Assembly: GCA_002686755.1 (NCBI GenBank)
Contig: NYYJ01000187.1
Span: 1-34,378 of the forward strand
Direction: 5' to 3'
DNA: 34,378 bases
DNA from: Verrucomicrobiales bacterium
Lineage (GTDB): Bacteria; Verrucomicrobiota; Verrucomicrobiia; Limisphaerales; UBA1096
Shown here: positions 100 to 34,378 of the stretch, in pieces
Layout: each line of letters opens with the position of its first letter
How positions within the stretch are numbered: the first letter of the stretch is position 1
Position numbers and translations under genes: made by a program
The notes under the pieces: generated by a model
What the model was told of the DNA's origin: nothing
Databases searched by the model: none
What the model saw: the letters and a program-made list of their open reading frames with translations, nothing else

Positions 100-879
100 A
101 TGAACAGGTTGATCGTTCCCCGATGTCTTGCCGCAGCCATGATGCTCGCCACGGCCCTCGTTGCCCCGAGCCGCACCTTGGCCCAGCCCGAATCCCCGAA
201 GAAACCCGGCTCTCCCTGGCCGGAGTGGAAGCTGACCGATTTCCAGCCAAAGAGCCCAAGATTCAACGAGACTTACGGGCTGGAGCATTTTCGCGGCCGA
301 GTGACCTTCGTCGCCCTGCTCGCGACCTGGTGTGGGTTTTGCAAGACGCAGATCGAGAAAATGGAAGAGATGCGGAAAGAGTTCGCGGCCAACCGCATCA
401 AGGTCAATTTTGTCGTCGTCAACGTCGCTTCCGGGGAATCAGAACAAAATGAGTTCACCTCTCGCTGCAGCTTCCCTCTATTTCAGGACACCGAACTGGT
501 AGATGCGTTTGGACTTCACCAGGGAGGCAAGGATGACTACTATATTTACAACGAACGCGGTGAGTTGACGGACTTTTTCCCGTTCCGGGGAACACGCGCA
601 TCGGATCTCGCCTCCCCCGAGGGCTATGCGAACCTGAAGCAAGCCATCCTTGACGCGCCGTTCCAAAGCCGCTTGTCGGCGGAGACCGTGGCCGCCGTGA
701 CGATCGATGGCGTCGCGGGCCGCACCTACCGGATCGACTACAGCGAGGATCTCGGCGACAACAAAAACTGGAAGCCGCTGAAGACTGTCACCATCGACGC
801 CGACCAGTTTATTTATATCGATCTCGAGGCGACCCGCCTGCGCAAGCAACGCTTTTACCGGATCGAGGAAGTCCCGTGA
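100..879 (+). CDS. Secreted thioredoxin-like (TlpA/redoxin) protein with C-terminal beta domain
   Basis: A 259-residue exported protein. Residues 1-28 form a signal peptide with a hydrophobic Ala/Leu core and a TLAQ end. Residues about 45-185 read as a thioredoxin fold of the TlpA/ResA type, with the redox pair C78-G-F-C81 after a Trp, so it probably handles disulfides or reduction in the periplasm. Residues about 198-258 (from [16 protein letters not shown] to RFYRIEEVP) look like the short beta-rich tail module found at the end of many Verrucomicrobial and Planctomycetal secreted proteins; I cannot assign it a function. The stop overlaps the glpK start as GTGA, so the two are likely translationally coupled although no functional link is obvious. 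The ATG at 100 is chosen because it gives the signal peptide. Confidence 0.8.
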
Positions 880-2357
880 GCCGAAAAAAACATACCCTCG
901 CGCTGGACCAAGGAACGACCAGTTCTCGGGCGATTGTTTTTGATGCGCTTGGCCAAGCGGTGACAGTGGCGCAGCGGGAGTTACCGCAGATTTATCCCAA
1001 ACCGGGCTGGGTCGAGCACGACCCGGCTCTCATCTGGAAAACGCAACTCAGCACGGCCAAGCGCGCGCTGCGCCTGGCCAAGCTCTCCGCTGCCGACATC
1101 GCGGCAATCGGCATCACCAACCAGCGCGAGACCACCCTCGTTTGGGATCGCGACACCGGAAAGCCGACCGGCAATGCCATTGTCTGGCAGGATCGCCGTA
1201 CTGCGAACTTTTGCGACGCATTGCGCCGGGAGAAGGCCGACCGGCTGATCCGCCGCAAGACCGGGCTCGAACTGGACGCCTACTTCAGCGCAACCAAGAT
1301 TCGATGGCTGCTCCGCAACACCAAGGGCGCCTTGGCCAAGGCGCGCGCCGGCCGCTTGGCCTTTGGCACGGTCGACTCGTGGTTGATCTGGAACCTGACC
1401 GGCGGGAAGGCGCACCTCACCGATGCCACGAACGCCTCGCGGACGATGCTGTTCAACCTCCGCACCGGCGACTGGGACGACGAACTGCTGACGCTGTTCG
1501 GCATACCGCGATCCGTTTTGCCCAAGATTGTTTCATCCAGCGGGGTTGTTGGCGAAACGAGCGCGCTGGGCCAGGCGATCCCCATCGCCGGCATCGCTGG
1601 AGACCAGCATGCCGCGCTGTTCGGCCAATGCTGCCACCGACCCGGCATGGTCAAGAACACCTACGGCACCGGTTGCTTCATGCTGATGCACACTGGCAGC
1701 AAGCTGATGCCGTCCCGCAACCGACTGCTGACAACCGTCGCATGGAAGATCGGCGGCAAAACGGAGTACGCGCTGGAGGGCAGCGTCTTCATCGCCGGTG
1801 CCGTAACGCAATGGTTGCGTGACGAGTTGGGCATTATCAAGTCGTCGGCGGAGATTGAGCACTTGGCCAAGCGCGTGCCGGACAACGGCGGCGTCCACCT
1901 CGTGCCGGCTTTCACAGGACTGGGTGCGCCGCATTGGAACCCCCACGCGCGCGGCACCATCACCGGGCTGACCCGAGGCACGACCAAGGCACACCTCGCC
2001 CGGGCCGCGCTGGAGGGTATTGCCTATCAAGTGAGCGACATCCTCGCCGCGATGGAACGTGACGCCGGCACAAAGCTGCGCGAACTGCGCGTCGACGGCG
2101 GTGCCAGCGCCAATAACCTGCTGATGCAATTCCAGAGTGATCTGCTCGGGGTGCCGGTCATCCGCCCGGCCAACACTGAGTCGACTGCGCTCGGCGCCGC
2201 ATACCTCGCCGGCCTTGCCGCGGGTATATGGAAAAATAAACGCGACATCACTTCCCAATGGAGAGCCAAACGGCGATTCAAGCCAACGATGACTCCGGCC
2301 ACCCGCAACACGCTGCTTGCCGGGTGGAACCGCGCCCTGTCACAGGCCCAGCTATGA
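876..2357 (+). CDS. glpK: Glycerol kinase
   Basis: Phosphorylates glycerol to sn-glycerol 3-phosphate with ATP in the cytoplasm. At 493 residues it has the normal length for the FGGY kinase family. The phosphate-binding N-terminus [14 protein letters not shown] is at residues 10-23, the substrate region GWVEHDP and ITNQRETT follow, WQDRR comes next, and the second FGGY signature GLGAPHW lies at about 348-354 followed by ITGLTRGT. The ADP-site segment [14 protein letters not shown] is near the C-terminus. It starts at GTG 876, overlapping the previous stop. No glpF or glpD is adjacent. Three CTTGGCCAAG palindromes lie within it (947, 1331, 1862), read as ALGQA, ALAKA and HLAKR. Confidence 0.95.
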
Positions 2358-33739: not shown

Positions 33740-33815
33740 GCCAGTTTAGCTCAGTTGGTAGAGCACTCGATTTGTAATCGAACGGTCGTCGGTTCGAGTC
33801 CGACAACTGGCTCCA
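33740..33815 (+). tRNA. tRNA-Thr (anticodon TGT)
   Basis: A 76-base gene ending in encoded CCA. The acceptor stem GCCAGTT pairs with AACTGGC, the D arm is GCTC...GAGC with GTTGGT loop, the anticodon loop is TTTGTAA giving TGT, and the T arm contains GTTCGAG. It reads ACA and other Thr codons. The discriminator base is T. The 3' side is followed by a disturbed region. Confidence 0.95.
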
Positions 33816-33942
33816 TCTCGCCCTCCTCCTCCCTACAGTACTTTGCCAAGCGCTCGGCCGGGAGAGCACCCTTCCCAAAATCCAACCGTCCCAAACAGCT
33901 GTCCGCTTTGCCGGGATTAAGCTTTTGTGGCTTGGCGGGTGC

Positions 33943-34029
33943 ATGAGCAGTCATCTCGACTTATTGCGTCAATACACCAACATCGTTGCCGACACCGGCG
34001 ATTTTGAATCCATCCGCGAATACACCCCG
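33943..34029 (+). pseudogene. Transaldolase 5' remnant
   Basis: The first 29 codons read like the start of a transaldolase: SSHLDLLRQYTNIVADTGDF then ESIREYTP. In a complete gene this is followed by an E/Q-D-A-T-T-N-P-S stretch with the start of the barrel; here the frame instead enters methyltransferase-like sequence. The joint lies at about 34030. It looks like the 5' end of a housekeeping gene cut or duplicated by recombination. Confidence 0.6.
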
Positions 34030-34292
34030 CTGGAGGACGATGCCAACAACGTCAACCCATCGGCCAAGCGGATGAAGACGCTTGTATCGTCGACCAAGGG
34101 ATCCGGGATGAAACTGAACCCGAACTGGGTGGAACAGCTGATGGGATTGCCAGCCGGCTGGACGCAACTCCCGACCCACTGGTCAACCGGGTAGATCGCC
34201 TTCGGCTGCTTGGCAACGGAGTGGTCAATCAAACCGCGGCCAAGGCATTTGCAGCACTGTCCGCGCGCTTGGCCAAGCACTTGAAGATTTAA
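34030..34292 (+). pseudogene. Cytosine-methyltransferase 3' remnant, frameshifted
   Basis: Codons 30-83 of the same frame give EDDANNVNPSAKRM and KLNPNWVEQLMGLPAGWTQL, a motif near the end of phage-type DNA methyltransferases. The frame then stops at 34192-34194, but the adjacent frame continues from about 34172 as DPLVNRVDRLRLLGNGVVNQ and ends at TAA 34290-34292. RLRxLGNGVVxQ is conserved motif X of C5 cytosine methyltransferases. The two halves belong together, so a frameshift of one base (or two) lies between about 34162 and 34175. Everything upstream of the tail (motifs I-VIII) is missing. A palindrome copy (34267) encodes RLAKHL. Confidence 0.65.
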
Positions 34293-34300
34293 CCGCAACC

Positions 34301-34327
34301 GGTGCCAGGTACGGAACGACTGACACC
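34301..34327. repeat. REP-like imperfect inverted repeat
   Basis: GGTGCCAG and CTGACACC pair in 7 of 8 positions around an 11-base loop, just past the methyltransferase remnant. A short hairpin of this kind resembles REP elements moved by REP-associated transposases, but no transposase is seen within the window. Confidence 0.4.
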
Positions 34328-34344
34328 AACCTCGGACTAGGTTG
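34326..34344. repeat. Short hairpin CAACCT/AGGTTG
   Basis: A six-base stem (CAACCT and AGGTTG) with a six-base loop follows the previous repeat with a T/G-rich tail. It could be a weak terminator for a disrupted gene or part of a mobile-element end. No firm role. Confidence 0.3.
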
Positions 34345-34378
34345 ATGTTGTTGTTTGTTAAGAAAAACGAACGGCGAC

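Follow-up and report, generated by a model that had tools for sequence, protein, structure and literature searches.

How did the first 29 codons of a transaldolase gene (tal), lying just past a tRNA-Thr gene, come to run in frame into the tail of a C5 cytosine methyltransferase? The arrangement is found at the end of contig C187 of a metagenome-assembled genome (3.50 Mb, 87% complete); the window analysed here is this entire contig of 34,378 nucleotides. The original prediction, made by inspection of the sequence, saw in it the scar of an excised or decayed island. We consider it probable that one captured phage segment replaced most of tal, beside but independently of the tRNA gene. The features at the end of the window are as follows.

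33740-33815, forward strand: intact tRNA-Thr gene, anticodon TGT (ARAGORN; Rfam, 70.2 bits)
33943-34029, forward strand: 5' stub of tal, 29 codons (MSSHLDLLRQYTNIVADTGDFESIREYTP), with the ATG at 33943
34027-34030, forward strand: left joint, CCGC, common to tal and the phage gene according to alignments
34031-34293, forward strand: 3' end of a phage C5 methyltransferase gene in frame A, with motif X and the TAA stop at 34291-34293
34114-34164, forward strand: motif IX-like stretch LNPNWVEQLMGLPAGWT in frame B, in frame with the tal stub, with a TAG stop at 34192-34194
34197-34226, forward strand: motif X-like stretch RLRLLGNGVV in frame A
about 34315-34355, forward strand: hairpin 3' of the methyltransferase end, with the same sequence in L037
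34378: end of contig C187; contig C79 carries the other phage end together with the 3' remnant of tal

The tRNA gene and the in-frame run of 29 tal codons into the methyltransferase tail were both confirmed by ARAGORN, Rfam and alignments. Up to position 34034, the window displays 79%–89% DNA identity to intact tal genes of the same genus; compared with the orthologue of G007, which encodes 323 aa and matches PF00923 (2.3e-96), 79 of the 87 nt of the stub are identical and 8 differ. From position ~34027, the window matches instead the methyltransferase 3' end of L037 (92% over 355 bp) and viral contig L117 (89% over 190 bp), in which the N-terminal part of the methyltransferase matches PF00145 (1.3e-33). 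The last ~112 bp are identical to L037 and the remainder is ~88%–90% identical. The switch from tal to phage takes place in frame at CCGC, and phage-type sequence then reaches the contig end. What remains of the methyltransferase lacks the catalytic N-terminal part with motifs I–VIII, and Pfam searches with the fusion ORF and its halves, pieces too short for the purpose, gave no relevant match. The DNA of the tail has no match in phage and plasmid records, and the sequence 3' of the methyltransferase end has no exact match in viral contigs; among 388 genomes of the phylum, the tail matched itself and a single 29-bp stretch in one other genome. No overlap extending the window was found in C79, the first 6 kb of C32 or the first 20 kb of 60 other contigs.

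In the phages to which this sequence leads, the genes follow the order terminase, portal-position gene, small gene, cargo locus and, where the contig continues, scaffold-position gene; the terminase and the major head protein were assigned by PHROGs, and 'portal' and 'scaffold' are names by position only. In L117 the cargo locus holds the methyltransferase, in L218 an ankyrin gene on the reverse strand and in L317 an ankyrin cluster; in L214 it is empty. In chromosomal copies, too, this locus is taken up by methyltransferase or ankyrin genes. In L037, from a metagenome-assembled genome named Kiritimatiellia, the methyltransferase end, the hairpin, a Nif11-like gene and an ankyrin end stand in a row. 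The order methyltransferase, ankyrin, scaffold-position gene is a composite, because it is drawn from several sequences; the methyltransferase and the scaffold-position gene occur together on none of the phage contigs compared. Ankyphages are phages carrying ankyrin-repeat genes as cargo, and the phages considered here resemble them in gene content; a point of difference is that the present cargo locus also turns up in host chromosomes together with head-gene stubs. Within L037, the gene between the methyltransferase end and the ankyrin end (1581-1865, reverse strand) encodes a Nif11 domain (Pfam, 6e-8), and a stretch just before the methyltransferase end (861-906, minus strand) looks by eye like the 3' half of a tRNA, with no complete tRNA reported there by ARAGORN.

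The second half of tal was found in the window's own genome, on contig C79, by searching with the right-hand neighbour gene of tal in G008.

L213 15054-15399: phage sequence on C79, 92% identical to viral contig L218
L213 from ~15399 onward: tal 3' remnant on C79 (AEKLAEGIRRFAADTGKLDSFLSQS, after a one-base frame disturbance)

The remnant adjoins the conserved HEAT/cytochrome gene that is the right-hand neighbour of tal. The phage piece contains the first ~72 codons of the scaffold-position gene, which in L214 is the gene just before that for the major head protein, and a reverse-strand ankyrin gene directly precedes it. Between the left end of C79 and the phage piece lie 15 kb of ordinary, non-phage genes, which are syntenic elsewhere in relatives; one gene of the contig (12036-13988) is found next to an ankyrin gene in G011 as well, and a MenC/SUI1/ankyrin neighbourhood was seen in that genome. 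The two tal halves are not joined on any one contig. Two contigs, each bearing one tal end and the same phage region in matching orientation, are strong evidence against a simple chimera and, since the C79 remnant abuts phage DNA of the gene next to the cargo locus, one phage segment most likely replaced tal codons ~30–286.

Comparison with relatives places this event within a broader history of the locus. In G007, G011 and G017, a reverse-strand PSD1/cytochrome gene, tRNA-Thr, tal and a reverse-strand HEAT/cytochrome gene follow one another. In G006, tal still follows the tRNA but is interrupted by frame breaks, and in G016 the tRNA is separated by 1.7 kb from an intact tal. The closest relative at this locus, G008, has a deletion that starts just past the tRNA and spares the last ~75 codons of tal, and in G009 the tRNA is followed by ~5 kb of other genes before a tal 3' remnant is reached. 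The tal locus is thus disrupted differently in three species (L199, L200 and the window with L213). Synteny across relatives, proposed by the original prediction as a check, proved clean, which makes the state of the window derived. The 87%-complete genome has no PF00923 match and retains only the 29-codon stub and the C79 remnant of tal, and no C5 methyltransferase domain was detected elsewhere in it; the search for intact copies of the two genes, likewise proposed, thus returned none in this genome, and yielded the missing 3' part of tal. The view of a broken tal joined to a phage-derived second part, and of the locus as a scar, is supported. The three unlike scars in the window's genome, G008 and G009 indicate that tal was lost in three species by different events, which suggests that transaldolase is dispensable in these species.

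RLRLLGNGVV and LNPNWVEQLMGLPAGWT lie in different frames, as had been described, but the accompanying reading of this frameshift as damage does not hold. In the fetched loci, WVExLMGxPxGWT and RLRLLGNGVV are in different frames, offset by 2 mod 3, in 99 out of 99 motif pairs (including a few overlapping copies of one contig), so that the offset is the normal state of the family and not decay. The second frame contains, in 51 phage genes, a mean of 1.5 stops against 6.6 expected under synonymous shuffling. The codon-position signal also switches frame: before ~34170, 10 of the 14 differences between the window and L037 are at third positions of frame B, and after this point 11 of the 15 are at third positions of frame A. 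These patterns fit phage methyltransferase genes that would encode two overlapping polypeptides, and the subunits of M.EcoHK31I, a two-polypeptide C5 methyltransferase, are encoded in overlapping frames. In that enzyme, motif IX alone is carried by the smaller polypeptide, apart from motifs I–VIII and X (PMC3404938). Similarly, the motif IX-like and motif X stretches of the phage genes never share one frame; unlike M.EcoHK31I, the phage genes are known by sequence alone, and the window retains just the last ~90 codons. The marine phage C5 methyltransferase genes (L117, L238-L314) have another long open frame, in which WPTP and LNPxWVExLMG are conserved and which is under selection according to the codon-position evidence; they form a large set of candidate M.EcoHK31I-like two-polypeptide methyltransferases.

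The hairpin downstream of the methyltransferase end had been described as REP-like. It is present in a single copy in the genome and hence is not a REP element, and 28 of 200 shuffled versions fold as well (z −1.25); at most, it is perhaps terminator-like. A different repeat, the palindrome CTTGGCCAAG, occurs 31 times in the window (for example, at 71-82, 947-958 and 34267-34278) and 745 times in 964 kb of the genome, and resembles the HIP1 palindrome of cyanobacteria; GCTTGGCCAAGC is found 19 times in the window versus 0.01 expected. CTTGGCCAAG is absent from phages L214, L218 and L117. The captured tail contains one copy of it, close to where the perfect match to L037 starts.

The same phage region has entered chromosomes of the genus at three sites, counting tal, and is complete at one of them. 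In G014, it lies in one piece between two chromosomal genes; it begins at about codon 480 in the portal-position gene and breaks off near codon 200 of the scaffold-position gene. G013 carries the same insertion, degraded by an internal deletion. G006 and G008 share a fragment of the region at another site, downstream of a LysE-family gene. The coordinates of the head region fragments with ankyrin genes at the two sites other than tal are L233 4104-9648, L234 3537-4120, L235 5674-6134 and L236 7229-7342. A complete portal-position gene was not found in the genus genomes searched, and the window's genome has no portal-position gene; besides the captured segment, the ~0.96 Mb sampled of that genome contain no other phage head genes. 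Only the ends of the cargo locus were seen there, and no complete prophage with head, tail and integration genes was found. Tentatively, the cargo locus with stubs of both flanking head genes could be a unit captured repeatedly into host chromosomes, with homology between the ankyrin genes of phage and chromosome perhaps serving as the anchor, and tal as one landing site; we hold this for possible rather than likely.

The proximity of the scar to tRNA-Thr, together with the other genes found between tRNA and tal in G009 and G016, recalls an island integrated at the 3' end of the tRNA gene, and the original prediction had pointed to the tRNA as the integration site. However, the tRNA is intact, the breakpoint falls inside tal, at codon 29 and ~210 bp past the tRNA gene, the ancestral gene order of the genus already places tal after the tRNA, and no direct repeat of the tRNA 3' end is present in the window end or at the G009 and G016 loci. 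The sole other stretch with similarity (35 bp, 89%) is at the start of contig C32, where it is cut by the contig end. No integrase was evident in the ORF lists of the window end and of C79. An insertion inside tal next to an intact tRNA, with no 3'-end repeat found nearby, leaves a tRNA-targeted island unsupported, and we regard it as highly improbable; because relatives hold pieces of the same viral region elsewhere, repeated capture of viral cargo is the likelier history. A chimeric contig end, produced during library preparation or assembly, deserves little more credence. The joint is 350 bp from the end of a contig in a metagenome assembly, and the abrupt rise to full identity with L037 over the last ~112 bp is of the kind that an artefact could leave, but C79 independently has the tal 3' remnant attached to the same phage region, the orientation of which matches, no tal was detected elsewhere in the window's genome, and related species share inherited inserts of the same region.

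It is also conceivable, if rather unlikely, that a whole temperate phage integrated in tal and then decayed, the cargo region being kept, perhaps by selection. The position of the phage piece inside tal would accord with such a course, the ankyrin and methyltransferase cargo genes could be selected, and G013 demonstrates that an insert of this kind does decay internally. Against it, the two ends of the G014 insert fall within two head genes, and chromosomal genes follow immediately on either side; none of the copies was seen to be flanked by an integrase or another phage gene, and the genus genomes searched have no full portal-position gene.

Capture of a single phage segment thus remains the reading that we favour, given that both stubs abut phage DNA and that orientation and composite phage gene order agree. 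A stretch of phage DNA, reaching from near the end of the methyltransferase, probably through an ankyrin cargo gene, to ~72 codons into the following head-region gene, would have been joined into tal, leaving the 29-codon 5' stub and a 3' remnant of ~35 codons in place of the full gene, and C187 and C79 would flank this one original insertion. The joining would have proceeded by illegitimate recombination at few shared bases, with no involvement of an integrase, and the loss of tal may have been tolerated because the gene is dispensable here. The halves may later have been parted by exchange between ankyrin gene copies, or been misassembled within ankyrin repeats; either would look the same.

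At the left joint, CCGC alone is exact, and the right joint displays short, partly decayed similarity; the ~4 nt of microhomology could be due to chance. Short shared P-x-E-D and N-P-S stretches had been suggested to guide the recombination. The likeness is visible at the joint, but at the joints neither the methyltransferase nor the scaffold-position gene aligns significantly with tal, and the best local DNA alignment of tal with the methyltransferase scores 23, versus a shuffle mean of 23.7, and lies away from the joint. The lack of significant local alignment speaks against homology-guided joining at these motifs. Judging from the sequences, double illegitimate recombination at microhomology would be the most likely route. 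Reportedly, such recombination was described by Hulter and Wackernagel in 2008 during natural transformation, with a foreign segment replacing a recipient segment at joints of short or no homology. The present case is similar in that a foreign segment appears to have been swapped in for a tal segment with little homology at the joints, and differs from that system in that the replacement is deduced from sequence alone.

Through the captured DNA, a genus without cultured members is linked to a group of phages, and the locus itself shows that a central-metabolism gene was lost repeatedly, each time in a different way. Collectively, the inserts suggest that one small region of the phage genome makes its way into host chromosomes at several sites, unaccompanied by the remainder of the phage. 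In this way, ankyrin genes may be transferred between phage and host, a route that can be put to the test.
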